In this document: positions 10,029 through 58,365 of the stretch, piece after piece
Layout of the letters: each line of letters starts with the position of its first letter
How positions within the stretch are numbered: the stretch's first letter is position 1
From: Polynucleobacter sp. HIN5
GTDB taxonomy: Bacteria; Pseudomonadota; Gammaproteobacteria; Burkholderiales; Burkholderiaceae
Assembly: GCF_030297555.1 (NCBI RefSeq)
Contig: NZ_AP028136.1
Span: 1,550,001-1,614,000, forward strand
DNA length: 64,000 bases
Reading direction: 5' to 3'
Position numbers and translations under genes: made by a program
The notes under the pieces: model-generated
What the model was told of the DNA's origin: nothing
The model's database searches: none
Seen by the model: only the letters and a program-made list of their open reading frames with translations

Positions 10029-10041
10029 AGTGATCCAATCA

Positions 10042-44353: not shown

Positions 44354-44553
44354 GGATGAAAAATAGAAATATTAGGGGAAACCATTAAAAAGTGCGAAAA
44401 TACAGGAATTGTTTCAAGCTCACATATTGTAAAAGTCTCGGTCAAGCTCTGGCCAAAGGGATATACAGGAGACTGGGCGGGCTAGCTCACAAGGCATGGC
44501 TAATTAATTAAAATGGTTCCTTTTTTAAAAATTCTTGCTTTTGGAGATACGCC

Positions 44554-45690
44554 ATGCGCATTGGAGTGCCGCTGGAAACCAGACCCGGAGAGACCCGGGT
44601 TGCCGCGACCGCTGAGACCGTTAAAAAGCTAATTAGCCAGGGTCATCAAGTCATTATTCAATCAAGTGCAGGGGTTGGCGCCAGCCTTCCCGATAGCGCC
44701 TATGAGGCCGTTGGGGCCAGTATTGGCTCTGCAGCCGACGCATTTGCCTGTGAGATTGTTCTTAAGGTTCGTGCTCCCCAGACCGATGAGCTAAAGCAGA
44801 TCAAGGCGGGATCCGTCCTGATTGGCATGCTCGATCCCTTTGATAATGCAGGAATTTCTGCCATGGCAGCTCAGGGAATCACTGCTTTCGCCCTTGAGGC
44901 CGCACCGCGGACCACTCGTGCCCAGAGTATGGATGTCCTGTCCTCCCAAGCCAATATTGCTGGTTACAAGGCTGTGATGTTGGCCGCAAATGAGTATCAG
45001 CGCTTTATGCCCATGCTGATGACCGCTGCGGGAACCGTAAAAGCTGCCCGCATCCTAATCTTAGGTGCTGGAGTAGCCGGATTACAGGCCATTGCGACCG
45101 CTAAGCGTCTTGGCTCAGTGATTGAGGCCTCTGACGTCCGCCCCGCTGCCAAAGAACAAATTGAATCCCTGGGCGCCAAATTTGTCGATGTGCCCTATGA
45201 AACCGATGAGGAACGCGAGATTGCTCAAGGGGTTGGTGGTTATGCCCGCCCCATGCCAGAGGCATGGATGAAGCGTCAAGCAGCACTCGTGGCTGAGCGT
45301 GCCGCACAAGCTGATATTGTGATTACCACCGCCTTAATTCCTGGACGTAAACCCCCTGTTCTCTTGCATACCGATACCGTTGAGAAGATGAAAGCTGGCT
45401 CTGTGGTGATCGATATTGCCGCTGGGCGCGGTGAGAACGGTTCGGGGAACTGTCCACTGACTCGTGCAGACCAGGTAATCAATCACAACGGCGTAAAGAT
45501 CGTTGGTTATACCAATTTACCAAGCATGGTGGCTGCCGACGCCTCAGCCCTCTATGCCAGAAATTTGCTTGATTTCATGAAGCTCATCATTAACAAGGAA
45601 GGGCAACTTGCCATTCCAGCTGCAGCCGATGACGATATTGTTGCCGCCTGCTTGATGTGCCGTGATGGCCAAGCCATTCGCACTAATTAA
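44554..45690 (+). CDS. pntAA: NAD(P) transhydrogenase subunit alpha, soluble part 1
   Basis: The NAD(H)-binding domain I of proton-translocating transhydrogenase. The 378-residue protein starts [20 protein letters not shown] and has the NAD-binding Rossmann motif [19 protein letters not shown] near residue 170, the [10 protein letters not shown] motif, and [19 protein letters not shown]. It lacks the membrane helices that E. coli PntA carries at its C-terminus; these are encoded by the next gene. That split-alpha layout is common in alpha- and betaproteobacteria. It is the first gene of pntAA-pntAB-pntB. Confidence 0.94.
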
Positions 45691-45707
45691 TTATTGAGGG
45701 AACCAAA

Positions 45708-46043
45708 ATGGATGCTGCTGCTATTCAAAGTCTATTAACCGTCCAAAACATCACAGTTTTTGTGTTGGCTATTTTTGTTGGCTACCACGTGGTGTGGAAT
45801 GTCACACCTGCTTTGCATACCCCGCTGATGTCGGTCACGAATGCCATTTCAGGGATCATCATTGTTGGCGCGATGTTGCAAACGGAAGTCATCAATGGCG
45901 ATGAAATTACTCTAACCAGTGTGATTGGAGCGTTAGCTATTTTCCTAGCGTCTATCAATATCTTTGGTGGTTTTATGGTCACTCGGCGAATGCTTGAGAT
46001 GTTCAAGAAAAAAGCTCCGAAAAACGAATCGGCTGGTCACTAA
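45708..46043 (+). CDS. pntAB: NAD(P) transhydrogenase subunit alpha, membrane part 2
   Basis: A 111-residue protein with three to four hydrophobic helices ([17 protein letters not shown], then [20 protein letters not shown], then [17 protein letters not shown]). [12 protein letters not shown] is the family signature. It supplies the membrane half missing from PntAA. It lies 18 bases after pntAA and 15 bases before pntB, so the three are one operon. Confidence 0.94.
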
Positions 46044-46057
46044 TAAGAGAGCACATC

Positions 46058-47422
46058 ATGTCAAACTTCACAGCCATTTCTTATCTTATTTCGTCCGTGC
46101 TATTTATTTTGGCACTCAAAGGACTCTCGTCCCCAACCACCTCGCGTCAAGGCAATGTCTATGGAATGGTTGGGATGGCACTTGCGGTTGTTACCACCTT
46201 CTTAATTCCAAGCTTTAAGCCGGTTTATTGGTTAATTGGGGGAGCAATCATCGCGGGCGCCATCATTGGCTCGATTGCAGCACAACGCGTGCAAATGACC
46301 AAGATGCCTGAGCTTGTCGCTTTAATGCACTCCTTTGTAGGTTTATCAGCGGTATTGATTGCGATTGCTGCAGTCTTTAATCCTGCCCAAACCCATAGTG
46401 GTGCTCAAAAAATTGAGTTGTTTATTGGTGCATTCATTGGAGCAATTACCTTTACAGCGTCCATCATTGCATTTGGAAAACTCTCCGGCAAGGTCAGCGG
46501 TAAACCAGTGAGCTTTTCAGGGCAGCATTTGCTCAACTTGATCATGGCGATCTTGATGGTCGCTGCTGGCGTTGCATACTTCCTCACCGATAGTCACGCT
46601 GCATTCTTGATCATGTGTGCAATTGCTCTGGTACTCGGTATCACCTTGATTATTCCGATTGGTGGCGCCGATATGCCGGTGGTGGTATCCATGCTCAACA
46701 GCTATTCTGGTTGGGCGGCAGCTGGTATTGGCTTTACCCTCAACAACCCTGTGTTAATCATTGCGGGTGCTTGCGTTGGCTCCTCCGGTGCAATTCTGTC
46801 TTACATCATGTGTAAGGCCATGAATCGCTCAATTACTGCTGTTTTACTCGGCGGTTTTGGTGCTGAAGCCGCTGCTGGGGGTGATGATGGTGGCCCCAAG
46901 AACTACAAAACGGGTTCCGCAGAGGATGCTGCATTCTTGATGACCAATGCCGATACGGTGATCATTGTTCCAGGGTATGGTCTGGCGGTAGCGCGTGCGC
47001 AACATGCGCTTAAAGAGCTCACCGAGAAGTTAATTCATCATGGTGTAACGGTTAAGTACGCGATCCACCCTGTTGCCGGTCGTATGCCAGGCCACATGAA
47101 CGTACTATTAGCCGAGGCCGAAGTTCCTTACGATCAAGTTTTTGAGATGGAAGACATTAACAGCGACTTTGGACAAGCTGACGTGGTTCTCGTTTTGGGT
47201 GCCAATGACGTAGTAAATCCCGCAGCACGCACGCCCGGTAGCCCGATCTTCGGTATGCCCATTTTGGAAGCGTTCAAAGCCAAAACCATCATCGTCAACA
47301 AGCGCTCGATGGCAGCTGGCTACGCCGGCCTCGACAACGAACTCTTCTATATGGACAAAACCATGATGGTCTTTGGTGATGCCAAGAAGGTCGTGGAGGA
47401 CATGGTCAAAGCGGTGGATTAA
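46058..47422 (+). CDS. pntB: NAD(P) transhydrogenase subunit beta
   Basis: PntB holds the rest of the proton channel and the NADP(H)-binding domain III. The 454-residue protein has about nine membrane helices up to residue 265 and then the domain III motifs VIIVPGYGLAVARAQHA, YAIHPVAGRMPGHMNVLLAE and VLVLGANDVVNPAA. The reading frame is complete and normal in length. However, its last ~90 bases are one copy of the integration repeat, and the stop is TAA where the displaced original copy (55417-55506) has TGA. The distal end of the gene was therefore supplied by the integrated element, and its original terminator is now about 8 kb away. Confidence 0.95.
   Translation: MSNFTAISYLISSVLFILALKGLSSPTTSRQGNVYGMVGMALAVVTTFLIPSFKPVYWLIGGAIIAGAIIGSIAAQRVQMTKMPELVALMHSFVGLSAVLIAIAAVFNPAQTHSGAQKIELFIGAFIGAITFTASIIAFGKLSGKVSGKPVSFSGQHLLNLIMAILMVAAGVAYFLTDSHAAFLIMCAIALVLGITLIIPIGGADMPVVVSMLNSYSGWAAAGIGFTLNNPVLIIAGACVGSSGAILSYIMCKAMNRSITAVLLGGFGAEAAAGGDDGGPKNYKTGSAEDAAFLMTNADTVIIVPGYGLAVARAQHALKELTEKLIHHGVTVKYAIHPVAGRMPGHMNVLLAEAEVPYDQVFEMEDINSDFGQADVVLVLGANDVVNPAARTPGSPIFGMPILEAFKAKTIIVNKRSMAAGYAGLDNELFYMDKTMMVFGDAKKVVEDMVKAVD
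47333..47422 (+). repeat. Left attachment repeat (attL), the end of pntB
   Basis: This copy encodes the last 29 residues of PntB plus stop. It matches 55417-55506 at 83 of 90 positions by my count. The longest identical runs are 17 bases (47333-47349) and 32 bases (47351-47382), and strand exchange probably happened in one of them. All six codon differences are synonymous (Tyr, Ala, Val, Val, Asp, Lys), and the seventh changes the stop from TGA to TAA. Confidence 0.93.
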
Positions 47423-47471
47423 GACAGCTAGACCAATAGTTATAAGGCTGTAAGGGAGATTTAAAAGGGCT

Positions 47472-47488
47472 TGTCCAATTCCTGTCCA
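47472..47488 (+). promoter_or_regulatory. Integrase arm-type sites, left end
   Basis: Two direct copies of TGTCCA start at 47472 and 47483, exactly 11 bases apart (one helical turn). They lie between the pntB stop and the integrase start codon. The same motif and spacing recur at the right end. Binding by integrase is inferred; the position, 15 bases before the ATG, would also let integrase repress its own gene. Confidence 0.65.
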
Positions 47489-47502
47489 ACTGGAGAGGAA
47501 AA

Positions 47503-48498
47503 ATGGCATCGATTCGTAACCGTAACGGTAAATGGCAAGCCCGAATCACCCGCAAAGGACAACAAGCAGTCGCTAAGTCCTTCTCAAATAAACAAGATGC
47601 AGAAAAATGGGCAAGGCAGCTCGAATCCGAAATGGATAAGGGTTGCTATACCAATTTAGTTTTGGCTGAGCGTACCCTGTTTAGCGAAGTCATCGAACGA
47701 TACATCCAAGAGGTAACTCTCAAAACTCGCAGCATGCGAGAGGATACATATCGCCTAAAAGCTCTGGCAAGGCATCCAATTGCCAAACAATCGATGGCAA
47801 ATCTAACGCCGATGAAAGTAGCGGAATATCGAGATGAACGACTAAAGATAGTCTGTAATGGTACGGTTATTCGGGAGCTGAGTTACTTCTCTTCCATCAT
47901 TAATCACGCCAGAAGGGAATGGGGCATCAATATTAATAATCCTATCCCGCTAGTAAAAAAGCCGCCCAGCACCAAGGGAAGAAGTCGCATCCTAACGAAT
48001 GAAGAGCTAAGCAGGCTATATGAAGCCCTGAAACCGAGAGTTAAAAATGCAAATCACTGGATTCTCCCAATAGTTAAATTAGCCCTTGCTACTGCGATGA
48101 GGCGTGGGGAACTATTGGCTTTGAAATGGACTGATATTGACCTCAATAAGAAAACTGCATATGTCCCTATAACAAAGAATGGTGATAGCAGAACTGTCCC
48201 GCTGTCTTCCGAAGCAGTTGAAATATTAAAAGATCTCCCAAGAAATATTAATGGGAAAGTCTTTCAAATTACTAACTGCACCCTCTCAGCAGCGATTGAA
48301 AGAGCAAGAACTAAAGCAAATATTAATGACTTTCATTTTCACGACTTACGCCATATGGCAATAACCAGTCTTGCCGAGAAACTACCTAACTTAATTGAGC
48401 TGTCTTCAGTAACGGGTCATCGAAGCCTTGCGATGCTTAAACGCTATTACCATCCAAGAGCTGAGGATATTGCAAGAAAGTTAGATAAGATTGCCTAA
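47503..48498 (+). CDS. Tyrosine site-specific integrase
   Basis: The 331-residue recombinase has an N-terminal arm-binding domain (ASIRNRNGKWQARITRKGQ, like the AP2-type integrase domain), a core-binding SAM-like domain around residues 60-150, and the catalytic domain with the Arg of ATAMRRGELLALKW, the HDLRHMAITSLAE box, the second His in TGHRSLAMLKRYYHP, and the Tyr nucleophile in the same motif. All R-H-R-H-Y elements appear present, so it should be active. It lies directly next to attL and reads inward. A GGAGAGG Shine-Dalgarno precedes it. No promoter was recognised in the 80 bases after pntB, so read-through from pntB may express it. Confidence 0.93.
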   Translation: MASIRNRNGKWQARITRKGQQAVAKSFSNKQDAEKWARQLESEMDKGCYTNLVLAERTLFSEVIERYIQEVTLKTRSMREDTYRLKALARHPIAKQSMANLTPMKVAEYRDERLKIVCNGTVIRELSYFSSIINHARREWGININNPIPLVKKPPSTKGRSRILTNEELSRLYEALKPRVKNANHWILPIVKLALATAMRRGELLALKWTDIDLNKKTAYVPITKNGDSRTVPLSSEAVEILKDLPRNINGKVFQITNCTLSAAIERARTKANINDFHFHDLRHMAITSLAEKLPNLIELSSVTGHRSLAMLKRYYHPRAEDIARKLDKIA

Positions 48499-48503
48499 AT
48501 GAA

Positions 48504-48707
48504 ATGATTACCGTAAAGCATAACTCAGAAATCCACAAGTTTGAAACCCTCGATCAAGCCATGTCTTGGGCGAAAGAATTGGGTGAATTTGTCAGAATTG
48601 AGTTTGATGGAATGGAGGCTGTCGGGAAATTTGGTGCAGATGGCATTCTAGACGGCAAGTTTCCAAATGGTGAAACCTATACATGGAAGAAGCGTAGAAG
48701 GCGGTAG
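48504..48707 (+). CDS. Small hypothetical protein following integrase
   Basis: 67 residues, five bases after the integrase stop, so probably co-transcribed. The sequence begins MITVKHNSEIHKFETLDQAM and ends in a basic tail KKRRRR. A central beta-rich stretch (VRIEFDGMEAVGKFGADGI) suggests a small folded domain. It does not look like a known excisionase, although its position and basic end would allow a DNA-binding or directionality role; that is speculation. Confidence 0.6.
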   Translation: MITVKHNSEIHKFETLDQAMSWAKELGEFVRIEFDGMEAVGKFGADGILDGKFPNGETYTWKKRRRR

Positions 48708-48773
48708 CTTAGCTAATCGCCCTCAACAGTGCTAATCTAGACCATCAACAATAACTAAGTAAAGGATAAATTC

Positions 48774-48881
48774 ATGGAAATTACTAACGTAACGCTTGGA
48801 CTCATATTCTCAGGCGTCGGAATAGCTACATTACTGATCATCATTTTTGGCAGCCGTGGATCAAACGACAAGGATCATTAA
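48774..48881 (+). CDS. 35-residue membrane peptide
   Basis: A short frame with a good Shine-Dalgarno (AAAGGA, seven bases before ATG). It encodes one hydrophobic helix (VTLGLIFSGVGIATLLIIIF) and a polar end GSRGSNDKDH. This is the layout of many single-span micropeptides, but no family is recognised. It is followed five bases later by the next frame. Confidence 0.5.
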   Translation: MEITNVTLGLIFSGVGIATLLIIIFGSRGSNDKDH

Positions 48882-48886
48882 GCTCT

Positions 48887-49063
48887 ATGAGTGATGTTGA
48901 AATTCTTGGAAGACCTCTTTATCGCCCTGTTAAACATAAGCTAAAGGATGATCAAAAGCATTTAGATCAACTCCAATCCAGAGAATCAAAGAAAACTCTA
49001 CTTGACTCCGAAATTGAGTATGTAAGAGACGAAAAGGACTGGTGGTGGTGCGAGGATGTATGA
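48887..49063 (+). CDS. Small hypothetical protein, first of an overlapping pair
   Basis: 58 residues, highly charged (KLKDDQKHLDQLQSRESKK) with an unusual DWWWCEDV end. Its stop overlaps the start of the next frame as ATGA, so the two are probably translated in a fixed ratio. No clear Shine-Dalgarno precedes it. No family recognised. Confidence 0.5.
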   Translation: MSDVEILGRPLYRPVKHKLKDDQKHLDQLQSRESKKTLLDSEIEYVRDEKDWWWCEDV

Positions 49064-49239
49064 GGGAGTTGCAGAAGAAAACCAAGATTCCTAAAAAGAC
49101 CTTGACTGAGCTGCTAAGTGACCAATCAGTGATTACTGGTCGTGAAGTAGTGCAACGCATCAAAGATAAAGAGAGGCTAAGCAAGCAGTTTAAAGAGGCA
49201 GTTGAATTTGAGTTAAGGAACAGTCGGGGCAGGAAATAA
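49060..49239 (+). CDS. Small basic protein, second of an overlapping pair
   Basis: 59 residues starting MRELQKKTKIPKKTLTELLS, rich in Lys and Arg and mostly helical, with a short HTH-like KIPKKTLTELLSDQSVITGREVV. It may bind DNA, but the evidence is slight. The ATG overlaps the previous stop. A longer frame with a start at 49042 exists, but the coupled start is more natural. A TTGACA box for the next gene begins five bases after its stop. Confidence 0.5.
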   Translation: MRELQKKTKIPKKTLTELLSDQSVITGREVVQRIKDKERLSKQFKEAVEFELRNSRGRK

Positions 49240-49298
49240 AGTATTGACATTGCTGTTCTAAATCTGTTACACAGGGATTTTTACTGTACAAAAGACCT

Positions 49299-49688
49299 AT
49301 GAAGGACTATTACTCAATTTTAGGAGTTAGTAAAGAAGCTGATGAGGTCGTAATTCGTGCTGCATATAAGGCTTTGGCTCAGAAATATCATCCCGACAAG
49401 GCATCTCCTGAATTAAAAGCCAAATATACGGAATTAATGAAAGAAATTAATGAGGCTTACTCAATTTTAGGTAGCTCAATCAAAAAAGATGAAAACTATT
49501 TCGAACCAAAAAAGTATGAGAATTATGAATTTGAGAAAGAAAAGGCCACAAAAGAACACGGTCATACACATCAATACTCAAGCCAGCGCAAAAAAGAACT
49601 TCCAGATTGGGTAATTAACCTCATCTTGTTTTCTGTGTCCATATTTTGTTATTACTTAATCTTTAAATTCATCATACTTAAAGACTGA
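49299..49688 (+). CDS. Membrane-anchored J-domain protein
   Basis: 129 residues. The N-terminal 60 residues are a clear J domain (YYSILGVSKEADEVVIRAAY, the essential KYHPDKAS loop, and EINEAYSILGS), which stimulates the ATPase of an Hsp70. The middle is charged, without the Gly/Phe linker or zinc repeats of DnaJ. The C-terminus has one hydrophobic helix (WVINLILFSVSIFCYYLIF). It would tether host DnaK at the inner membrane. A TTGACA box at 49244 may be the -35 element, but the -10 is unclear. J proteins of this small tail-anchored kind occur on mobile DNA; the target is unknown. Confidence 0.8.
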   Translation: MKDYYSILGVSKEADEVVIRAAYKALAQKYHPDKASPELKAKYTELMKEINEAYSILGSSIKKDENYFEPKKYENYEFEKEKATKEHGHTHQYSSQRKKELPDWVINLILFSVSIFCYYLIFKFIILKD

Positions 49689-49693
49689 GGCTA

Positions 49694-49723
49694 TTGACTT
49701 TCCATATTTAAATTTGCTATAGG
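49694..49723 (+). promoter_or_regulatory. Likely sigma-70 promoter
   Basis: TTGACT (49694-49699), an 18-base spacer, and TATAGG (49718-49723) preceded by TGC, an extended -10. The start codon of the next gene is at 49745. The short leader can form a hairpin, TGAACC (49724-49729) with GGTTCA (49738-49743), that pairs part of the AGGAGG Shine-Dalgarno. Confidence 0.55.
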
Positions 49724-49744
49724 TGAACCTAACAGGAGGTTCAT

Positions 49745-50092
49745 ATGTCCGATATACCCAGTCAGTTTGCAATAAATCCAGATAAATCAAATGGTTGCTA
49801 TTCATTCCCCAAGCCTGAGCCTTTAGACCCAATAACGGCTTCCCTTAAAGAATCAGCGTTTTTCCCTGATATTCAAGCCTATGTGACTTTAGACGCAAGA
49901 GTTCGCAAAAGCGGTGACTTCTGGGTTGATATGGGAACTATGTTCGGGTCTAGAAACTCGGGAATGGATATATCAATCGGCAAATATTCAAACATCAACG
50001 AAACGCTTGATTACCTTAGGAAACTCCAAAAAGTAACGGATGATTTGATACGCTTTATTGTCTATAACAACCTTAGGAAATCAGAAGATTAA
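49745..50092 (+). CDS. Hypothetical protein
   Basis: 115 residues, preceded by a strong AGGAGG five bases before the ATG and its own candidate promoter. It is soluble, with a Pro-rich start (FPKPEPLDPITASLKES), a middle with DFWVDMGTMFGSRNSGMDIS and a helical end. No signal peptide or known motif is visible. The strong translation signals suggest it is well expressed; function unknown. Confidence 0.6.
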   Translation: MSDIPSQFAINPDKSNGCYSFPKPEPLDPITASLKESAFFPDIQAYVTLDARVRKSGDFWVDMGTMFGSRNSGMDISIGKYSNINETLDYLRKLQKVTDDLIRFIVYNNLRKSED

Positions 50093-50115
50093 TCAACATA
50101 CTTTAGGAGTGCAGC

Positions 50116-50427
50116 ATGCGTTCAATTCTGCTCAGCTTTCTTATTCTCGGATCAGCCAACCTATTAGCACAGGGATATCCATCATCGAATTTCAATGATT
50201 CACCACTTAATTTCAATAACTCACCGTTGAATTTCGATAATTCTCCGTTGAATTTCAAGAACTCTCCATTGAACTTTGATAATTCCCCGTTGAATTTCAA
50301 CTCGAACAATGGGATTTATGACAATCGAGGAAACCGAATCGGATATGAGACTACCTCTCCCAGCGGGGTAACGAACTTCTTTGACAACAGCGGCAATAGG
50401 ACGGGGTATTCGCCATCAAGAAGATAG
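50116..50427 (+). CDS. Secreted heptapeptide-repeat protein
   Basis: 103 residues. A signal peptide (MRSILLSFLILGSANLLAQG) is followed by five perfectly spaced heptads of the form F-x-(N/D)-S-P-L-N (residues 26-60). Two copies of a second motif, YDNRGNRIGY and FDNSGNRTGY, come at the end. The mature protein is probably periplasmic or external. A clear Shine-Dalgarno (TTAGGAG) precedes it. Similar SPLNF-repeat secreted proteins occur in other betaproteobacteria, but I know of no function. Repeat number is likely to vary between strains because the coding units are 21-base tandem repeats. Confidence 0.7.
   Translation: MRSILLSFLILGSANLLAQGYPSSNFNDSPLNFNNSPLNFDNSPLNFKNSPLNFDNSPLNFNSNNGIYDNRGNRIGYETTSPSGVTNFFDNSGNRTGYSPSRR
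50191..50295 (+). repeat. Five 21-base tandem repeats
   Basis: Units start at 50191, 50212, 50233, 50254 and 50275, each coding one heptad. The protein units differ only at positions 2 and 3. DNA differences are mostly at third positions, so the protein repeat is under selection. Confidence 0.85.
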
Positions 50428-50560
50428 ATTAGTAAATATCTTAAAAGCTATTGGCTTAATTGAAATCTTCTAATAGCTAAATTAGTCATATAAGCTCGTT
50501 CAAAATACTAACTACCGCTTTGTCTACTGTTGTAAAAAGATAACTCATTGCATGAATAAC

Positions 50561-50589
50561 TTGACAAAGTTGAAGATGCCTAATAAATT
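50561..50589 (+). promoter_or_regulatory. Promoter for structured leader and HTH-HNH operon
   Basis: A perfect TTGACA -35 box (50561-50566), a 17-base spacer and TAAATT (50584-50589) as a fair -10 box. Transcription would begin near 50596, exactly where the first leader hairpin starts. The preceding 130 bases (50428-50560), after the repeat-protein gene, hold no gene that I can see. Confidence 0.6.
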
Positions 50590-50595
50590 ATTAAT

Positions 50596-50756
50596 GTGCT
50601 AGAAACTGGCACACACCTGCTGCTACAGGTTGAGGTTATGCAATGCCCTTAAGGGCAACCAACATAGGCGAACACATCAGGGTAATGACCTGACTACAGA
50701 TTCCTAGCGTAGGCCGTTCATAGTTTTCTTTGTGAACCCATTACGACCTAGGAATC
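50596..50756 (+). ncRNA. Unidentified structured leader RNA with five hairpins
   Basis: Successive stems are visible. GTGCTA / TGGCAC lies at 50596-50612 (loop GAAAC). ACCTG / CAGGT lies at 50615-50630. TGCCCTTAAGGGCA is a 14-base palindrome at 50644-50657. TCAGG / CCTGA lies at 50677-50693. A long bulged hairpin with outer arms GATTCCTAG (50699-50707) and CTAGGAATC (50748-50756) also has inner pairs CGTA/TACG, GG/CC and GTTCA/TGAAC. The last stem ends three bases before the ATG of the next gene and buries its only AGGA. I could not match it to a riboswitch, group I or II intron core, or hammerhead. It may be an autoregulatory leader or a free small RNA. Confidence 0.55.
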
Positions 50757-50759
50757 CAA

Positions 50760-51314
50760 ATGACTAATAATCATCCTTATCTATACATCTGTAAGCCATC
50801 ACCCTCTTTCGCATTTTTACATCTTATCGACCTTAGTAAACCTCGAATTAAGAATATTGTTGAAATAATCGATGATGTTCAATACTTTGACGCAATTGGA
50901 ATTCAGAGCAATTACAAGAATCCATTTAAAGCTAATTTCATACGAAATGCTGAAAACAGCTCTGACAGCCTTAGCTCCGGGGCAATCAAATCCCATGATC
51001 GCCCAATTAGATTCTCAAACAAAGAACTTTTGGAATTCTTAGAGCCTAGAAAAGGTAGAGGAAAAGACAATAGACCGAGGAAAATCCACCAAAACAGTCT
51101 GAATAACTTAAAAAAGAATCCTGATTGGACATGCGAATCAAGACCATCCAAACCCAAGAAGATTTCTGATGAATTAGTTGATGAAGCAATTCAATTGAAA
51201 TCTCAAGGCATGTCTTGGAGAAAGATTGGCGACAGATTGCAGCTGAACTTCCAGTCTGTTAGAACTGCGATCAATAGAAGAAATAGCGAATCCGGTATCG
51301 GGAGTCAACAATGA
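50760..51314 (+). CDS. HTH-domain protein upstream of HNH endonuclease
   Basis: 184 residues. The C-terminal 45 residues form a resolvase-like helix-turn-helix (ELVDEAIQLKSQGMSWRKIG followed by DRLQLNFQSVRTAINRR). The N-terminal 100 residues are unrecognised, and the middle is basic (KGRGKDNRPRKIHQ). It probably binds DNA or RNA. The only Shine-Dalgarno-like sequence lies inside the leader hairpin, so translation may be controlled. The stop overlaps the start of the HNH gene (ATGA), so the two are coupled. Confidence 0.7.
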   Translation: MTNNHPYLYICKPSPSFAFLHLIDLSKPRIKNIVEIIDDVQYFDAIGIQSNYKNPFKANFIRNAENSSDSLSSGAIKSHDRPIRFSNKELLEFLEPRKGRGKDNRPRKIHQNSLNNLKKNPDWTCESRPSKPKKISDELVDEAIQLKSQGMSWRKIGDRLQLNFQSVRTAINRRNSESGIGSQQ

Positions 51315-51745
51315 GAGCGCAAATTAAGGAGCTAAATACTCGCATTAATTCCAAACTAATATGCTTTGATGGCTCCGACATACTAGTGATGGAGCATCCA
51401 ATATATCAAGGCTATTATTGCGATCCTCATGGCGAAATATATTCATCCAAGAGACGAATATTTAAGAAGCTAAAACAGTGTAAGCAAAAGTCAGGTTATA
51501 TGAAAACTACGCTTACAGTTAACGGGAAATTAATCTCATGTTGGAGTCACATTTTAATTGCCGACACTTGGCTCGAACCATCAGATTCTGATAGGTATGG
51601 AAATGCCCGTAATCAAGTGAATCATATTAATGGGATTAAATCTGATAATCGGATTTGTAATCTTGAGCGAAACAGCGCAAAAGAGAATGCACTTCATCAC
51701 AAGAATATTGCTCCTCTTTTTTCAAAACTTAGGAAAAGCAAATAG
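51311..51745 (+). CDS. HNH homing-type endonuclease
   Basis: 144 residues. It has an N-terminal NUMOD4-like region (YQGYYCDPHGEIYSSKRR) and an HNH_3-type nuclease motif with the His of CWSHILIADTWL, VNHINGIKSDNRICNLE, and the following NSAKENALHH. This is the layout of phage homing endonucleases. No intron or split gene is visible around it, so it is a free-standing nuclease, coupled by ATGA to the HTH gene. Its target could be the leader hairpin or a site in a competing element; both are guesses. Confidence 0.82.
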   Translation: MRAQIKELNTRINSKLICFDGSDILVMEHPIYQGYYCDPHGEIYSSKRRIFKKLKQCKQKSGYMKTTLTVNGKLISCWSHILIADTWLEPSDSDRYGNARNQVNHINGIKSDNRICNLERNSAKENALHHKNIAPLFSKLRKSK

Positions 51746-51842
51746 GGAAATCTGGGGATGAGTCTTTTCCCCGGAATTTCTTTAGAAAGTCAGGCAAAAA
51801 ACACACCTAAAAACGACTAATTAAGGGGTAAGTATGCAAAGG

Positions 51843-51860
51843 TATGTTCATGTCGAATTG
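51843..51860 (+). repeat. 18-base direct repeat, copy 1
   Basis: TATGTTCATGTCGAATTG is repeated exactly at 52286-52303. This copy continues into TTAATTTCGACAATT, forming an imperfect inverted repeat around it (GTCGAATT with AATTTCGAC). Confidence 0.8.
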
Positions 51861-52035
51861 TGTTTAATTTCGACAATTACCGATGTATGTGACGACAAAG
51901 CACCCTAATGTAAATTAAAGCTACCCTCCCCTATATAGACTATATAGTCTATGAAGATGCTTTTAACTAAGTAGTAATAATTTATATAGAAATCATTCCT
52001 ATATAGACATATACATAGAGATATAACTTAGTATT

Positions 52036-52080
52036 AACTATAAAGACGACATAAACATCAACTATGTTGTCTTTATAGTT
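52036..52080. repeat. 16-base inverted repeat with a third copy nearby
   Basis: Arms AACTATAAAGACGACA (52036-52051) and TGTTGTCTTTATAGTT (52065-52080) are separated by 13 bases and pair with one G-T. A further direct copy of TGTTGTCTTTATAGT lies at 52161-52175. Three copies in 140 bases suggest a protein binding site or iteron-like element. Confidence 0.75.
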
Positions 52081-52285
52081 TTATTCAATGTATAAATAAT
52101 AAGAATAATTACTACTTAGATAACTTAGCCTATAAAGGCTACATAAAACTATAAGATTGATGTTGTCTTTATAGTAGTTGCAAAACTAAGTTTTTACAGC
52201 AAGAGACAAATGTGATGAATTGTCGATAAAAATCAGGCTAAAAACATAGGCATATTTAAGGAGTTAATACCTCAGCATCATCTGC

Positions 52286-52303
52286 TATGTTCATGTCGAA
52301 TTG
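52286..52303 (+). repeat. 18-base direct repeat, copy 2
   Basis: Exact copy of 51843-51860. The preceding ~60 bases resemble those before copy 1 (TCAGGC, A-rich run, TTAAGG). It lies directly next to the stop codon of the minus-strand HNH restriction gene. Confidence 0.8.
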
Positions 52304-52310
52304 CTATTTT

Positions 52311-53420
52311 CTAATCAGTTTCTTCAACCGTTACTTTGTATATTTTTAGTAAGTCACTAAGGGAAATATCAATACCCTTTTTAATTAATAAATCATGTCT
52401 CATAGAATAAACAACTTCAATTAATTTAGACTTTTCGTTAAAAGTTCCATGATGAACTAGACGATGACAGTTGGGACACAGGGCAACGATATTGGCAACA
52501 ATATCCAAACTATTTTCATACTTTCCTTGCTCAGACATTGGGATAAGATGATGAGCCTCTACATACATCTTCCCTGTTAATCCAGAAATGAAACTTTGGT
52601 GTGAAATGTTGTACTCACAATTAAAATTCGAGTTCTTTAGAGCTTTTTTTGACTTTTTAATATCTCTTTTGTATTTGACCCCTACAACCGATGGCAATGG
52701 AGATGGCTTTTTCTCCGGTCCCATACTCTCTTCCTGATTGGTCTCTTCTTCAGTTATCAGCTCTTCTTCTAGCTCTTTTTGAAATTCTGAATCAGTCAAC
52801 GCCTGAAGCGACATCAAGTTTGGTCCTGCCAAATTAAATAATTCTTGATAGGCATTAAGAAGTTTTTTATAGTCCTCTGCGAATTTCTCTTCAGTTGGTA
52901 AAGAGGATGCTGGATAAACGAAACTAGCTATTGCTCCCAACTCATATCCCTTTGAATTTGCTGTTTCTGCTTTTAGATCAATTGGTCCATATGTTGCCCC
53001 CGCAATTGGCTCTAAATATGCTCTTGCCTTTTCAGCAGTCTCTTTAATCTTTTTAAGAGCGAGACTATGTTTTTTAAATTCCTCTGTAAACGCCTTGTAA
53101 CCCTGATTCAAAGAAAGTACACAACTTTGCATGTCTTTCGCAAAAAGGAGAACAATATCAAAACCATTTTGAGCTGATGTTGTGATTCTGGTGTCAAAAG
53201 TAGCAACCCAAGGTGTATGGGTCATTCCAGTATTGCCATATGAGCCTTGAAACTTATATCGGTCAACTGGAAATTGCGAAGATCGTACTATCGACTCAAA
53301 AAAACTTGGAATACCTACTTTTAGAGCAAGTTGTGAGGACGAATTTATATTCTTTGCAACCCTATTATTTAAGTTATAGGTTACTAGGTAATCATCAAAA
53401 ACATCTTTAATTAATTTCAT
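52311..53420 (-). CDS. DUF3578-HNH restriction endonuclease, McrA-like
   Basis: 369 residues in two parts. Residues about 15-190 match the MrcB-like N-terminal domain (DUF3578): FQGSYGNTGMTHTPWVATFD, RITTSAQNGFDIVLLF, SLNQGYKAF. This fold binds modified cytosines in related enzymes. Residues about 270-345 are an HNH nuclease: VEAHHLIPMSEQG, then NIVALCPNCHRLVHHG. The second zinc Cys pair (CPNC) is intact, but the first seems reduced to a single Cys (NCEYNIS). An acidic Glu-rich linker joins the parts. By analogy with type IV enzymes it would cut modified phage DNA. It lies 14 bases after a companion gene on the same strand. Confidence 0.85.
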   Translation of the reverse strand: MKLIKDVFDDYLVTYNLNNRVAKNINSSSQLALKVGIPSFFESIVRSSQFPVDRYKFQGSYGNTGMTHTPWVATFDTRITTSAQNGFDIVLLFAKDMQSCVLSLNQGYKAFTEEFKKHSLALKKIKETAEKARAYLEPIAGATYGPIDLKAETANSKGYELGAIASFVYPASSLPTEEKFAEDYKKLLNAYQELFNLAGPNLMSLQALTDSEFQKELEEELITEEETNQEESMGPEKKPSPLPSVVGVKYKRDIKKSKKALKNSNFNCEYNISHQSFISGLTGKMYVEAHHLIPMSEQGKYENSLDIVANIVALCPNCHRLVHHGTFNEKSKLIEVVYSMRHDLLIKKGIDISLSDLLKIYKVTVEETD

Positions 53421-53434
53421 TCCATGTCCATTTA

Positions 53435-53905
53435 CTAATACCTAAATAGCCTGAGAAATTCCTCGGAATTTTGTAAATGATTCCATGCTTCTTCAGCTTT
53501 TTTAAATCTTTCTTCTTTGTAATTATGAAATTGATCTGCTGGCGCCAATAAGACCTCTTTCATTTCATCATCGTCAAGTATTAAAGACGCCTTGATGTAA
53601 GAAAACTTTGCCATTTCATAAACTAATTCTTTTTGTTCATCTTCGATATCTTTATAAATATTCAAAGAGACAATCGCTGCAACCAAAACATCTAACTTTT
53701 TAATTTCTATTTCAGACTCAATTAATATTCCTAATTCTGCATAAGATGCGCTTTGCTTACACAAGTCAACAAACTCATAACATAATGAAACTGCACCACC
53801 CTTTCTTTTTCTGAGTTGCTTCGCTATGGCTTGCATTCTTTCAATTGATTTCTGCTCGACACTTTTTTTTGAATCATTTGAAAAGATTTGTTTAAGGAAG
53901 TTCAT
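53435..53905 (-). CDS. Hypothetical helical protein, companion of the HNH restriction gene
   Basis: 156 residues, mostly charged helices (KSVEQKSIERMQAIAKQLRK, DDDEMKEVLLAPADQ, KKAEEAWNHLQNSEEFLRLF). There is no signal, membrane helix or known motif. It lies upstream of the DUF3578-HNH gene on the same strand with a 14-base gap, so the two are likely co-transcribed. An accessory or immunity role is conceivable but not shown by sequence. Confidence 0.65.
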   Translation of the reverse strand: MNFLKQIFSNDSKKSVEQKSIERMQAIAKQLRKRKGGAVSLCYEFVDLCKQSASYAELGILIESEIEIKKLDVLVAAIVSLNIYKDIEDEQKELVYEMAKFSYIKASLILDDDEMKEVLLAPADQFHNYKEERFKKAEEAWNHLQNSEEFLRLFRY

Positions 53906-53916
53906 TTAATTATCAA

Positions 53917-54045
53917 TTATCTAATTTGATCAAAAATCCAGCCAATGACAAAAAAGGCTGCTGCAGTCACAACAGTAATTCCTGTAAACGGTGCAAGGAT
54001 TAAAGAAACTATTCCGCAGAAATACATTAGCGTTGCTAAGCTCAT
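53917..54045 (-). CDS. 42-residue two-helix membrane peptide
   Basis: The frame MSLATLMYFCGIVSLILAPF continues as TGITVVTAAAFFVIGWIFDQIR, two hydrophobic segments joined by a short turn. It starts a possible minus-strand operon, 11 bases before the 156-residue gene. The ATG has an AAGGAAG-type Shine-Dalgarno upstream on the minus strand. Small two-helix peptides next to nucleases are sometimes toxins or effectors; here this is only a suggestion. Confidence 0.5.
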   Translation of the reverse strand: MSLATLMYFCGIVSLILAPFTGITVVTAAAFFVIGWIFDQIR

Positions 54046-54083
54046 TTAATACTTCCTTTTTTTCTTATGTTAGCCTAATACTT

Positions 54084-54284
54084 ATGAAATCTAAAGCTAT
54101 AGCCTTTTTCGCTACTATCCTTATATCTACAGGGTTATTTGCTCAGGGGAAACCCGTAAAAATGAGTAATTCTGGCATTTGTCATGCCCCAAATACGACA
54201 TACTATGATCAAACAAAGAATTTCACACCTTACAAGACTTTGGATGAATGTTTAAAGGCTGGCGGGAGGATGCCTAAGAAATGA
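54084..54284 (+). CDS. Small secreted Cys-containing protein
   Basis: 66 residues from ATG 54084. A signal peptide (MKSKAIAFFATILISTGLFAQG) is followed by a compact domain with GICHAPNTTYYDQTKNF and YKTLDECLKAGGRMPKK. The two Cys probably form a disulfide. This domain type (Cys-His, YY-x2-T-x2-F-x2-Y, C-x3-GGR-x-P) recurs in small proteobacterial secreted proteins and at the ends of some nucleases; I do not know its function. The stop overlaps the next start (ATGA). Confidence 0.65.
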   Translation: MKSKAIAFFATILISTGLFAQGKPVKMSNSGICHAPNTTYYDQTKNFTPYKTLDECLKAGGRMPKK

Positions 54285-54529
54285 AGAAATTATATTTACT
54301 GTTGTCATTGCTATTTCTATTAGTTGGTTGTACAACCTCTCAAGAAATTAAAAGGGTTGATGGCGAAAGCGAGTTTTTAATTGGCTGTGGAGCTGCAACT
54401 GGTTGGAATATTTGTTATCAAAAAGCTAATGAAATATGTCCTAATGGCTATAGAACTATTTCCGAAGTTGGAGGTTTTAATCGTAAAGAGCTTAGAGTTT
54501 CATGCCCCAAAAGTAATACAAATAAGTAA
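54281..54529 (+). CDS. Small lipoprotein
   Basis: 82 residues with a lipoprotein signal (MKKLYLLLSLLFLLVGC), where the lipobox LVGC gives the modified Cys. The mature part has FLIGCGAATGWNICYQKANE and EICPNGYRTISE with four more Cys, so it is probably a disulfide-held domain on the periplasmic face. Similar small lipoproteins are found on many islands. It is translationally coupled to the preceding secreted protein. Confidence 0.7.
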   Translation: MKKLYLLLSLLFLLVGCTTSQEIKRVDGESEFLIGCGAATGWNICYQKANEICPNGYRTISEVGGFNRKELRVSCPKSNTNK

Positions 54530-54547
54530 AAGCGATGTACATCAAAG

Positions 54548-54733
54548 ATGACGGGAGTAAAGATCGAGCTACTTATTGAGTTTACTGTCATTCTTCTCGC
54601 CCCGATTATTCATACTTACTATCTGTGGAAATACAAGAAAGTTGAGAAGAAAGAGCTAATTAAGAATGTCAAGATCTTTGCTGGTTTTTATGCTGTATTA
54701 GGATTGGTTGTCTTTATATTAATATTTAAGTAA
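54548..54733 (+). CDS. Small two-helix membrane protein
   Basis: 61 residues with two hydrophobic segments (ELLIEFTVILLAPIIHTYYL and FAGFYAVLGLVVFILIFK) around a Lys-rich cytoplasmic loop (KYKKVEKKELIKNVK). It follows the lipoprotein gene by 18 bases. The start MTGVKIE has a GACGGGAG-like sequence upstream. No family recognised. Confidence 0.55.
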   Translation: MTGVKIELLIEFTVILLAPIIHTYYLWKYKKVEKKELIKNVKIFAGFYAVLGLVVFILIFK

Positions 54734-54770
54734 CCAAATACTCCGAGACTGGCAAAAGGGTGGCAAAGAG

Positions 54771-55205
54771 TTGAAGTCCTTAATTAATTTACTTACCTTT
54801 GCACTGTTTTTTCTAAGCACTAATTTAGGCGCCCAGACAACGCTTAATTGCATTGTTGAATTAACTTCACTTGAGAGTAGAGTTATTCCTCTTTTTGGCT
54901 TTGAAGGAACAAAAACATTTAATGTAAATGTTACAGTACTACAAGACAATCGAATTCAGATATCCGGTCTTGGACAAATTGATGCTGTGTATCCTCCAAC
55001 AAAGATATCCGATAGTGGGATTAACTTTTCGGGATTATTAAAGTTCCCCAACCCAAATACAAGGTCTTACTACGGGGACAAAATTATTTCTGGATCACTA
55101 AATAGATTTAATGGCTCTTTTGATATTTACACACCCGCTGACAATCTGGGATTTATAACTTTTTCCGGAAAGGGATTTTGCTCAAAAGCAAGTAGACTTT
55201 TCTAA
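54771..55205 (+). CDS. Hypothetical secreted protein with TTG start
   Basis: 144 residues from TTG 54771. A signal peptide (MKSLINLLTFALFFLSTNLG) precedes a beta-rich mature domain (residues 24-144) with Cys near each end (LNCIVELTS and GKGFCSKA). The only start that keeps the signal peptide is TTG, which implies weak translation. It is the last gene before the right end. Function unknown. Confidence 0.6.
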   Translation: MKSLINLLTFALFFLSTNLGAQTTLNCIVELTSLESRVIPLFGFEGTKTFNVNVTVLQDNRIQISGLGQIDAVYPPTKISDSGINFSGLLKFPNPNTRSYYGDKIISGSLNRFNGSFDIYTPADNLGFITFSGKGFCSKASRLF

Positions 55206-55416
55206 AGCAGTTTTTGTAAGGGGAAGCGGTATCCATAAATAAGATTTCAACATCTTACCCTACCCCCCCTATCAGGCGAGATAGGACAGGAGTTCTGTCC
55301 ATTTTCTGTCCATTTCTTGTCCAATTAAATCCAAATTAGTGGTTAAATATAGACTTGATAAACAATCTAAGGGAATTGACGAAAACCTATAAATCGCCCT
55401 AGAAGCCTTATAAAAA
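55206..55416. other. Non-coding right end of the element
   Basis: No gene is visible between the last cargo gene and attR. It contains a C run (ACCCTACCCCCCC), the three TGTCCA arm-type repeats, and an inverted copy (GGACAG gagtt CTGTCC) next to them. Confidence 0.6.
55296..55323 (+). promoter_or_regulatory. Integrase arm-type sites, right end
   Basis: Three direct copies of TGTCCA start at 55296, 55307 and 55318, exactly 11 bases apart, matching the two copies at the left end. GGACAG just before adds an inverted half. They lie about 94 bases inside the attR repeat. Confidence 0.7.
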
Positions 55417-55506
55417 GACAACGAACTCTTCTACATGGACAAAACCATGATGGTCTTTGGTGATGCTAAGAAGGTGGTTGAGGATATGGTCAAGGCGGTG
55501 GATTGA
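55417..55506 (+). pseudogene. pntB: Right attachment repeat (attR): stranded 3' end of pntB
   Basis: The fragment would encode NELFYMDKTMMVFGDAKKVV and the remaining PntB end with a TGA stop, but has no start or promoter. It is followed 16 bases later by a strong terminator, as expected for the original end of the pntB operon. It is therefore the host-derived copy, cut off from the gene by integration. Confidence 0.92.
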
Positions 55507-55521
55507 TCATTATTACTTATT

Positions 55522-55549
55522 AAAAACGGGGCATATGCCCCGTTTTTTT
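55522..55549. terminator. Original pntB terminator, bidirectional
   Basis: A 10-base perfect stem AAAACGGGGC / GCCCCGTTTT around ATAT, with seven T after it on the plus side and five or more T when read on the minus strand. It should end transcripts from both directions: the former pntB operon and the tctC operon, whose stop is 16 bases away. Confidence 0.9.
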
Positions 55550-55564
55550 ATTGGAAGATAAAAA

Positions 55565-56539
55565 CTAATTTAATTGAATTTTTGCTTTTTCAATCACAGC
55601 TTTCCAACGTGAAATATCAAAGTTATATAGCTCAGTGAATTGTTGAGTATTCATAGGGGCAATCTGAACTCCGGCCTTGATAAATCGCTCTTTCACCTCC
55701 GGTGTTTCTAACATTTTCAAAATAGTAGAGTTAAGAGTTGATATGACCTCCTTTGGGGTACCTGCAGGTACGAACACGCCTTGCCATAAGGTCATTTCAT
55801 AGCCCTTTACCCCTGCTTCTTGCAATGTCGGTAGCTCGGGAGCACCAGAAAATCGATTCTTACTTGTTACAGCAAGCGCCCTGACTTTGTCACCCTTATA
55901 AAGAGGTAACCCCACGGGCATCCCTGCAAAATAGAAATCAATTTGACCCCCAATTAGATCTGTTACTGCTGGAGATCCTCCCTTATAGGGCACATGGATT
56001 GCACGTAAGCCAGTGCTTGATAAAAATAATTCTCCAGCCATATGATCTGAATTTCCCATGCCGGAGGACGCAAAACTCATTTTTCCAGGATTGGCCTTAA
56101 GCAAATCAATCAAGTCGGCGACACTTTTTGCCTTAGAACTATTGTTAACAATGAGAATATGGGGAGTGGCCGCCACACCCACCACTGGAACTAAATCCTT
56201 CTGCCCATTAAAGGGTAATTTTGGATTTGCTGCAACATTGATAGCTAAACCATTTTGCGCAAATAAGATTGTATATCCGTCAGGCGCACTTTTTGCAACC
56301 ACATCAGCAGCAATTGTTCCCGCCGCCCCGCCACGATTTTCAACAACAACTGGTTGCTTGAGTGCGTTACTTAAATCATTCGCAATAATTCTGCCAACAA
56401 TATCGGTAGCACTACCAGGCGCGAATCCAATCATCATCTTGATTGGCTTATCTGGATAGGCCGCGATGGCTTGCCCAATCACCAACATTGAAATTAATCC
56501 AACAATATTTTGTATACGACCTAATCTAATCCAATTCAC
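55565..56539 (-). CDS. Tripartite tricarboxylate transporter binding protein (TctC/Bug family)
   Basis: 324 residues. A signal peptide ends near AIAAYPDKPIK, and the mature protein has the Bug-family marks: the GFAPGSATDIVGRII loop, VVENRGGAAGTIAADVV, the HVPYKGGSPAVTDLIGGQID segment, and a C-terminal PAGTPKEVISTLN. These periplasmic proteins bind carboxylates with two water-bridged oxygens. No TctA or TctB membrane partner is present in the window, typical of the many orphan Bug proteins in Burkholderiales. It is the last gene of the SMP-30-gntR-ldh operon, so its ligand is probably the pathway substrate. Confidence 0.9.
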   Translation of the reverse strand: MNWIRLGRIQNIVGLISMLVIGQAIAAYPDKPIKMMIGFAPGSATDIVGRIIANDLSNALKQPVVVENRGGAAGTIAADVVAKSAPDGYTILFAQNGLAINVAANPKLPFNGQKDLVPVVGVAATPHILIVNNSSKAKSVADLIDLLKANPGKMSFASSGMGNSDHMAGELFLSSTGLRAIHVPYKGGSPAVTDLIGGQIDFYFAGMPVGLPLYKGDKVRALAVTSKNRFSGAPELPTLQEAGVKGYEMTLWQGVFVPAGTPKEVISTLNSTILKMLETPEVKERFIKAGVQIAPMNTQQFTELYNFDISRWKAVIEKAKIQLN

Positions 56540-56569
56540 TTTTAGTCTCCTTAGCTTATAAACTACTTA

Positions 56570-57625
56570 TTAATTACCATTATTTATTGGTGAAACACCC
56601 ACCTCTGCTGCACAAACATTTAATGCGAGTAATAATTCTTTAGAGATTGGAACTCCGTGCTCCATTCTTTTTTTCATTAATTGACTAGCCCCCTCACCTG
56701 GAATTCGAATTTCATTAACTCCAGGTAATTTGTTTGAACTCTTAATATCCTTAACTACAGTTGATACACGCTGAATAAATTCCTCCCGATTGCCAAATAC
56801 GCTTGGATCAAGAGCTATTAAGGCCTGTCCAGTATTTGTAACCAAATCATGATGTACATTGAAATTAATAGTGTCTTTTCCAACAGCCGCTCCATTAAGT
56901 GATCCTGCGAGAAGGCTAATCATTAAAGCTAGCCCATAACCCTTATGACCACCAATTGGTAAAAGCGATCCATTTTCAGCATCTGCCGGATTGGTTAATG
57001 AATTTCCACCCTTATCAATCATCCAGCCATCTGGAAGCAATTCTCCTTTTTGTGCTGCTAACTTAACCTTACCGTATGCCGCAACTGTTGTGGCGATATC
57101 TAGTAAAACAATAGGGTTTGCCGGCACTGCAATGGCAATTGGATTTGTAGAAAGTAATAAATCTATACCTCCCCAAGGAGCCATGTGGTTGGCATTTCCA
57201 ACTGCCATATAAATTCCAACCAACCCTACTTCAGCCAACATGCGAACATAAACAGATGCTGCGCCCGAATGATTACCATGATGACTTCCGATCCAACAAA
57301 CACCATATTCTTTTGCTTTTTCAATCGCCTTTTCAACTGCTTTTGCCATTACTAAATGCCCCATGGCATTATCACCATTTAACAAACCAGTTGCGCCATG
57401 CTCTCTATCAAAGCGAATTTTTGGATGCAAATTAATTCCACCAGCTTTTATTCGCTTTATATATGAAGGCAATCGAAAAATTCCATGCCCATCTGCGCCA
57501 GCCAAATCAGACTGGATCATGAGTTTGGCAACCAACTCAGCGTCTACCTCAGGCATCCCAACAGCAACGAAATTTTTTTTAATAAATAATTCTGCCTGAG
57601 ATACGGAAATTAAAATACTGGTCAT
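56570..57625 (-). CDS. Ldh_2 family (malate/L-lactate-type) NAD(P)-dependent dehydrogenase
   Basis: 351 residues with the Ldh_2 marks DLAGADGHGIFRLPSYI, GSHHGNHSGAASVY (catalytic-His region), LLSTNPIAIAVP and LPIGGHKGYGLALMI. The family reduces 2-keto acids: malate, ureidoglycolate, sulfolactate and 2,3-diketo-L-gulonate (YiaK) are known cases. Here the catabolic neighbours favour a sugar-acid-derived keto acid. The start overlaps the GntR stop by four bases, and tctC follows after 30 bases. Confidence 0.88.
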   Translation of the reverse strand: MTSILISVSQAELFIKKNFVAVGMPEVDAELVAKLMIQSDLAGADGHGIFRLPSYIKRIKAGGINLHPKIRFDREHGATGLLNGDNAMGHLVMAKAVEKAIEKAKEYGVCWIGSHHGNHSGAASVYVRMLAEVGLVGIYMAVGNANHMAPWGGIDLLLSTNPIAIAVPANPIVLLDIATTVAAYGKVKLAAQKGELLPDGWMIDKGGNSLTNPADAENGSLLPIGGHKGYGLALMISLLAGSLNGAAVGKDTINFNVHHDLVTNTGQALIALDPSVFGNREEFIQRVSTVVKDIKSSNKLPGVNEIRIPGEGASQLMKKRMEHGVPISKELLLALNVCAAEVGVSPINNGN

Positions 57626-58365
57626 GCACTCTCTCCATTTCGACCGCCTTTGAATACCATACTGTAGGTATACAAATTTTGAGGATGGTGAGTAATGGTT
57701 GACTCAAATAATTCATCATCAGCGTTGTAATATCGACGAACAATGACTAGACATGGGTCCCTTGCCTTAATTTTTAAGTGCTTTGCTTTATCGGCTGTAA
57801 CGCTGGTTGCATATACGTCTACCTCGGCTCGATCTATTTTGGTTCCATATTTATTTTCAATCTGCTCAAAAACCATGGAATGTGAGTGATCTGGATCGCT
57901 TGTTAACGATGCAAATTGTGGAAGAATGTAAATATCAGTCCAAGCGATAATCTGATTAGATCCCTTTTGCTTTCTAACTCCGCCAATGTGATACCAGGAT
58001 GAGCCTATTGGAGCTCCCACAAGCTTACTTTGGAATTGATCAAGCTCAATGAATTCCTCAACCAAATTCGTGCGATATGTATCACTAGGGTATCGCAATA
58101 TATCAACAGGAGAATTAAAGCTTTGTGTAAATTTTCTAGGAATATTTCTAGAAATCACTTGAGTTGGCGCACCCTGACGCCTGAGGATTAACCCGCTTGA
58201 CTCTATCGTTTGCAGTGCATGACGCAAAGTATGTCGACTCGCATTAAAAGTCCTACATAAGACAGTTTCGGAGGGTAAGTTTGAGCCAACAGGCCAAATA
58301 CCCTCGCGGATTCGCTGGGATAACAAAGCTGCCAAAGATTGGTATAAAGGCGTGCGACTTTTCAA
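57622..58365 (-). CDS. GntR family (HutC/UTRA) transcriptional regulator
   Basis: 247 residues. The N-terminal winged helix is clear (PLYQSLAALLSQRIREGIWP, then LPSETVLCRTFNASRHTLRH). A UTRA ligand-binding domain covers residues about 90-240 (SSWYHIGGVRKQKGSNQIIA, CLVIVRRYYNADDELFESTI). It lies within the operon it probably controls, one base after the SMP-30 stop and overlapping the ldh start. The paired operator-like sites at 59320-59334 and 59425-59439 are its likely targets. Confidence 0.9.
   Translation of the reverse strand: MKSRTPLYQSLAALLSQRIREGIWPVGSNLPSETVLCRTFNASRHTLRHALQTIESSGLILRRQGAPTQVISRNIPRKFTQSFNSPVDILRYPSDTYRTNLVEEFIELDQFQSKLVGAPIGSSWYHIGGVRKQKGSNQIIAWTDIYILPQFASLTSDPDHSHSMVFEQIENKYGTKIDRAEVDVYATSVTADKAKHLKIKARDPCLVIVRRYYNADDELFESTITHHPQNLYTYSMVFKGGRNGESA

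Follow-up and report, generated by a model that had tools for sequence, protein, structure and literature searches.

An integrative element at the 3' end of pntB

The window analysed here is a stretch of 64,000 nucleotides from the chromosome (one contig, 1.88 Mb) of Polynucleobacter sp. HIN5 (NZ_AP028136.1, positions 1,550,001 to 1,614,000 of the forward strand), a freshwater member of the genus Polynucleobacter. It appears to contain an 8,084-bp site-specific integrative element bounded by an 88-nt direct repeat (probability about 0.9). The target is the 3' end of the transhydrogenase gene pntB, which is rebuilt at the left junction (attL), with the displaced tail at the right junction (attR).

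A sequence-only reading of this DNA had delimited such an element by a direct repeat of about 90 bases, with pntB completed at attL and a displaced tail and terminator at attR. These features are all confirmed. A repeat search of the window returned two copies on the plus strand, at positions 47333-47420 (attL) and 55417-55504 (attR), spaced by 8084 nt and identical at 82 of 88 positions (93%). The complete pntB (46058-47422, plus strand) is an open reading frame (ORF) that matches 16 solved transhydrogenase sequences. The attR copy is a displaced pntB tail, after which a terminator-like hairpin with a T-run is read by eye at about 55521-55550 (plus strand). The terminator scan did not list this hairpin, which we attribute to the A/T-extended stem that takes up the T-run. 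Exactly as noted in the earlier reading, the copies differ at six codons, all synonymous (attL/attR: TAT/TAC, GCC/GCT, GTC/GTG, GTG/GTT, GAC/GAT and AAA/AAG), and at the stop codon (TAA at attL, TGA at attR). The G+C content is about 29-45% in the element and about 45-55% in the pnt genes.

The integrase gene (47503-48498, plus strand) encodes a tyrosine integrase of 331 aa (Phage_integrase, 3.3e-30; phrog_1 integrase, 1.7e-65). The catalytic domain PF00589 scores 105.5 bits against a curated cut-off of 27.1, which places the protein in the tyrosine recombinase family, and candidate catalytic residue motifs (AMRRGE, TKNGDSR, HDLRH, GHRS and RYYH) are recognized by eye in the alignment to the HP1 integrase. 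The gene begins 80 nt past the rebuilt pntB stop on the same strand, and the scan of the plus strand between 47423 and 47502 gave no terminator-like or promoter-like match, so transcription may run on from the pnt operon into the integrase gene.

A bounding direct repeat, one copy that completes the target gene and an integrase at one end are together the features of a gene-restoring element. No tRNA genes lie in the window, and Rfam gave 0 matches in 44000-58000. A chance origin of the repeat was rejected in view of 13 pairs from related genomes and contigs that align in register with the same layout. A plain duplication of the pntB end, with no site-specific recombination involved, would account for the repeat itself only; it is contradicted by the integrase beside attL in 10 of 108 genomes of the genus, by the common core in 13 pairs, by empty sites and by the same layout at moaC, and was rejected as barely credible.

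Empty, filled and relic-like sites in the genus

The pntB gene was found in 113 of 121 genomes of the genus, with a readable 3' end in 108. A related integrase starts at position 80-161 past the pntB stop in 10 of the latter, and a simple terminator hairpin lies within 150 nt past the gene in 73. By that rule 23 have neither, and a contig end cuts the remaining 2. Several of the 23 have an imperfect terminator by eye, and four of them (G015, G077, G093 and G117) resemble relics or other insertions. In genome G029 a filled site is split over two contigs.

Uninterrupted junctions of pntB and terminator, which the sequence-only reading had proposed to look for in relatives, exist and are common. 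In the uninterrupted genome G109, pntB (9720-11081) lies beside the gene (7527-9537) that stands behind attR in the window, and the flanks of the window, once joined, align to this genome at 82% and 71%. In G103 and G100 pntB also continues without an integrase.

Targets of the related integrases

Related integrases were located at 32 loci by a contig scan for integrase similarity. The sequence immediately upstream of the integrase is the pntB 3' end at 16 loci, the moaC 3' end at 8 and a ferredoxin gene's 5' end at 7; the remaining locus, L038, is a weak match and stands outside these counts. Further integrases came from 30 of 398 family genomes and 46 of 399 order genomes, among them G305, whose integrase is 95% identical to that of the window and also lies at pntB. 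For moaC, two tail copies are in register in 10 loci. For the ferredoxin gene, a broken gene start precedes the integrase at L036 (14733) and L037 (16642), and the full start is found at the other end of the element behind a TATAAT-bearing leader. The same ferredoxin site was also seen upstream of the integrase in two viral-collection contigs (L090, L091). In seven tRNA-using relatives (L213, L216, L217, L218, L222, L227 and L234) a broken antisense tRNA 3' half, read by eye upstream of the integrase, stops at the outer end of the anticodon stem or close to it. Broken tRNA halves were also sought mechanically; this flagged 19 of 31, several of them clearly spurious, and only the reading by eye was used. 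The pntB and moaC tails had 4 and 13 matches in phage records, taken as bacterial contigs or remote matches.

The transhydrogenase gene had been regarded as an unusual target. It is indeed the target, but not an isolated oddity, since pntB is the regular site of an integrase group with users of moaC, ferredoxin and tRNA genes as relatives.

The putative core and crossover

With the 13 pntB attL/attR pairs in register, the longest difference-free block is GTCTTYGGNGATGC (14 nt), followed by shorter shared runs. This block covers the codons V-F-G-D-A, where solved relatives have FGDAK, YGDAQ and LGDAK (9l76, 4o9u and 6qti). The putative core of the window, GTCTTTGGTGATGC, lies at 47369-47382 in attL, within an imperfect palindrome at 47370-47387, and at 55453-55466 in attR (both plus strand). 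In the last 303 nt of pntB, TCTTCG-GTGATG-CGAAGA is the only perfect 6-nt inverted repeat (spacer 6-8) present in more than one gene; it occurs in 76 of 105 genes and begins one base inside the difference-free block.

From this layout we infer that the last codons of pntB, from the core to the stop, are supplied by the element. The crossover could instead lie at the stop codon, in which case attL would be the host's own tail and the displaced tail the element's copy. The AAA codon at attL, and not the AAG of attR, is the form found in the four nearest species, which suits this alternative. At the six positions that differ, these species agree with attL about as often as with attR; in most pairs the two tails are nearly identical and hence indistinguishable, and no signal was obtained for tails that follow host or integrase. 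On the other hand, the core is the exact starting point of the element-side similarity in G120 and G058, and in G013 and L011 the start is no more than 9 nt away, as expected if only codons downstream of the crossover need to come from the element. At attR, the stop and next bases (TGATCA) also match the native ends of G103 and G100 and the attR of G305. A crossover at the stop is therefore considered improbable, and a crossover at the core over the F-G-D-A codons is preferred.

A core common to pntB and moaC was also considered: ATGGTCTTCGGTGATGCGAAG and ATGGTGATGGGTGATGTGAAG match by eye at 17 of 21 positions in the same frame. This candidate was dropped, as in 6 of 10 moaC pairs the similarity on the element side starts about 55 nt further upstream, in an 8-nt stretch ending in GCAGTCC.

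Repeats at both ends of the element

Two copies of TGTCCAA stand 11 nt apart before the integrase gene of the window (starts 47472 and 47483; 47472-47489, plus strand), and three copies of TGTCC with the same spacing stand near the far end (starts 55296, 55307 and 55318; 55296-55324, plus strand). Both are possible arm-type integrase sites. Of 90 loci, 79 have a 7-mer within the 60 nt preceding the integrase that is repeated at a spacing of 9-12 nt with at least 6 of 7 matches; it exceeds shuffled sequences at p<0.05 in 59 of the 90, and the spacing is mostly 11. The motif varies by element (TGTCCAA, GGCCTAA, TGCTCCA, TGCAACT and others). The far end of the pntB-type elements, inspected by eye, holds at least two motif copies in 9 of 9 cases, and the far motif resembles the near one in 8 of the 9, the remaining one being G006, with no clear near copy.

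Origin of the rebuilt tail

The attL and attR of the window differ at 7 of 84 nt, a level close to the 8.1-9.9% pntB distance of the four nearest species. To the right of the core the window has the most synonymous differences (5 codons); G006 has 4 and, in addition, one replacement and an altered end. Of the codons that differ in the 13 pairs, 17 are synonymous and 5 nonsynonymous, with two of the latter to the left of the core; the synonymous share expected under random change is about 0.2. The mostly synonymous differences imply that most of the divergence between the copies arose while they were coding, a pattern consistent with a tail from another lineage. In the majority of the other pairs the copies are nearly identical and have lineage-specific variants in common, which points to gene conversion or spread within a species. 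Among the rebuilt proteins, PntB of G006 ends in KSVEI in place of KAVE, and PntB of L016, L017 and L020 is two residues longer (endings ENS, ENT and EAS).

The earlier claim that the tail came from a different host background is only partly supported: the divergence is at species level and mostly synonymous. In a simple version the claim is opposed by two results. The four nearest species match attL and attR about equally at the differing positions. The integrase of G305 is as diverged from that of the window as pntB is (92.27% and 92.39% nt identity), and the tail and cargo of G305 differ. Partial correlations over 17 elements (0.01 and 0.15) gave no signal that the attL tail follows the host or the integrase. 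A derivation of the window copy from another species is plausible on these comparisons, although they do not distinguish whether attL or attR is the foreign copy.

The equal divergence of integrase and pntB between the window and G305, together with wholly different cargo, would also be expected of an old resident that was kept vertically in the window species, had its cargo swapped and is no longer mobile; relic-like sites do occur in the genus. This history is rather unlikely. The integrase frame is intact, and the third-position difference between the window and G305 is smaller in the integrase (0.166) than in pntB (0.219). In addition, the 80-nt leader is 97.5% identical to that of G305, the near species G103 and G100 are empty, and the integrases of loci L008 and L011 are 91% identical in hosts whose pntB is only 66% identical.

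Mobility and the proposed mechanism

The identity of these two integrases, set against that of the pntB of their hosts in DNA, argues for transfer between distant hosts. Movement between hosts is supported for these two relatives; for the window copy, the travel between related species that the sequence-only reading suggested is only plausible. Free forms may be represented by a 6,429-bp contig (L030) with a terminal overlap of 141 bp that closes to a 6,288-bp circle, or is a collapsed tandem; it holds an integrase, a joined site of the moaC type, an AAA/PriCT protein and a Na/H exchanger. An attP-like pntB junction is present in L020. In L071, L072 and L078 a second pntB tail is followed by the apparent start of another element, which suggests tandem insertion.

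In the proposed mechanism, the tyrosine integrase would join the core in pntB, GTCTTYGGTGATGC, to the same sequence in the circular element. In many genomes this core lies inside the palindrome TCTTCG-GTGATG-CGAAGA, and the arm sites, the 11-nt-spaced repeats at both ends of the element, would assist the recombination. Because the element would bring its own codons for the stretch between core and stop, integration would swap the pntB tail for an equivalent one, and the native tail with its terminator would end up at the far end. The integrase gene would possibly be transcribed by read-through from the pnt operon.

Several observations weigh against this interpretation. The palindrome is imperfect in the window (TCTTTG-GTGATG-CCAAGA), and the crossover is placed by comparison of the pairs. 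The 76 of 105 genes with the perfect palindrome are not independent, because they are related coding sequences. Two moaC and two ferredoxin pieces yielded no inverted repeat with 4-nt arms and a spacer of 6-8 nt, which counts against a common palindromic core, and its generality is not supported. The 10 element ORFs scanned include no excisionase or transfer gene, and the continued mobility of the window copy is presumed. Finally, two pntB ends separated by 3.9 kb are present in G077, with no integrase match. The sequence-only reading had named such genomes as contrary evidence, and this is literally the one case; it is better explained by a decayed element, because a leader like that of other elements follows the first pntB stop.

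Integrase tree and changes of target

A set of 90 distinct integrases was labelled by target as 20 pntB, 27 moaC, 11 ferredoxin, 31 tRNA (18 of them assigned by eye) and 1 unknown. In the tree of 86 integrases, the ferredoxin users form one clade (100/98), as do the pntB users without L028 (93/87) and the pntB and moaC users taken together without L029 (100/97). The users of protein genes lie together on the same side of a branch with weak support (91/54). The tree requires at least 4 changes of target. A single clade of moaC users is rejected (p-AU 0.0005) and a single clade of pntB users that includes L028 is not rejected (0.134), so the pntB users sit among the moaC users. From the spread of the tRNA users, tRNA would be the older target, a reading that applies to an unrooted tree.

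With its 6-nt arms and 6-nt spacer, the pntB palindrome is comparable in size to the anticodon stem, which has 5-nt arms and a 7-nt loop and is where several of the tRNA-using relatives break. Taken together, one integrase lineage may have moved from tRNA to protein genes through short, suitably symmetric sites in strongly conserved coding sequence: to the 3' end of moaC and thence to pntB, with the palindrome over the FGDAK codons, and separately to the 5' end of the ferredoxin gene, where the element would supply the leader and start codon and not the stop end. The arm motifs would change in step at both ends. This joint scenario is tentative, and we hold it somewhat less probable than its negation.

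Cargo of the element and its relatives

Of the 14 non-nested ORFs of 45 aa or more in the element, 10 were taken into the profile scans. On the plus strand the cargo comprises a DnaJ-domain protein (49299-49688; PF00226, 6.2e-17), two small proteins of unknown function (49745-50427; ORFs, no Pfam match), a protein of unknown function (50760-51314; no Pfam match; phrog_6081, 0.0075) and an HNH endonuclease-like protein (51311-51745; HNH_3, 5.8e-05, under the curated cut-off; phrog_959, 5.7e-20). The second small protein looks secreted and carries a 21-nt tandem repeat (repeat family D1) of the FNNSPLN type at 50187-50298. A relative of it (44%) is present in a moaC-type element. On the minus strand are an MrcB_N and HNH protein that resembles type IV restriction enzymes (52311-53420; PF12102, 7.9e-35; PF01844, 4.3e-06; mREase_IV, 5.3e-10) and a protein of unknown function (53435-53905; no Pfam match). 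Small proteins of unknown function follow on the plus strand at 54281-54529 and 54771-55205 (ORFs, no Pfam match).

No Pfam match to relaxase or transfer genes was obtained in the 10 ORFs scanned, the smaller ORFs being left out, and no phage structural, packaging or replication genes were found in them; the element is thus classed neither as conjugative or mobilizable nor as a prophage or satellite. Primase or AAA genes are present in the relatives L015, L022, L030, L070 and L072.

The sister element in G305 (L122, 3314-8120) has the 95% identical integrase and similar ends but shares none of the cargo, carrying instead a 481-aa protein (phrog_4756) and an autotransporter. A 13.7-kb pntB element in G058 (L071, 1520-15190) carries cargo that by eye is like radical-SAM proteins and cytochrome c peroxidase, and a carbonic anhydrase gene is cargo of the pntB element in G006 (L074, 6014-6763). 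In L012 and L018, a betaproteobacterial-type pntB with its element occurs in metagenome-assembled genomes labelled Cryomorphaceae and Thermoflexus, which are probably misbinned.

Relation to known elements and significance

The kind of element is already known. Islands that split a gene while carrying a replacement end are described for icd and many tRNA genes (PMC10111431; PMC4383910). They share with the present element a tyrosine integrase, a long attL/attR identity block, a replacement segment that keeps the target working and a displaced fragment that marks the far end; the element described here differs in being small and in its target, pntB (moaC and a ferredoxin gene in relatives). The HE-PICI integrase clade, for which prophage late genes are repeated targets (PMC10111431), is likewise one clade with several protein-gene targets. 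The targets here, however, are chromosomal metabolic genes, tRNA users are among the relatives, and no replication or packaging gene is found in the 10 scanned ORFs of the window element. The dusA-associated integrases (PMC4482086) are a family tied to one protein gene, but there integration is at the 5' end of dusA, whereas here it is at the 3' end for pntB and moaC, use of a 5' end being confined to the ferredoxin relatives. For SXT, pntB is a secondary site (PMC2297512), in this case at the 5' end and when prfC is absent. The gene also stands beside plasticity regions in a table for Photorhabdus and Xenorhabdus (PMC3091717). Within the accessible portions of the openly licensed literature, no description was found of the pntB 3' end, moaC or this ferredoxin gene as a regular integrase site.

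The series of target changes (tRNA, moaC, pntB and ferredoxin) within one integrase group, with its identity blocks, arm-like repeats and empty sites, makes the gain of new targets directly testable. The findings also show that mobile DNA is able to swap the final codons of a core metabolic gene and leave its protein intact, and that almost identical element ends can enclose entirely different cargo in species that are related.

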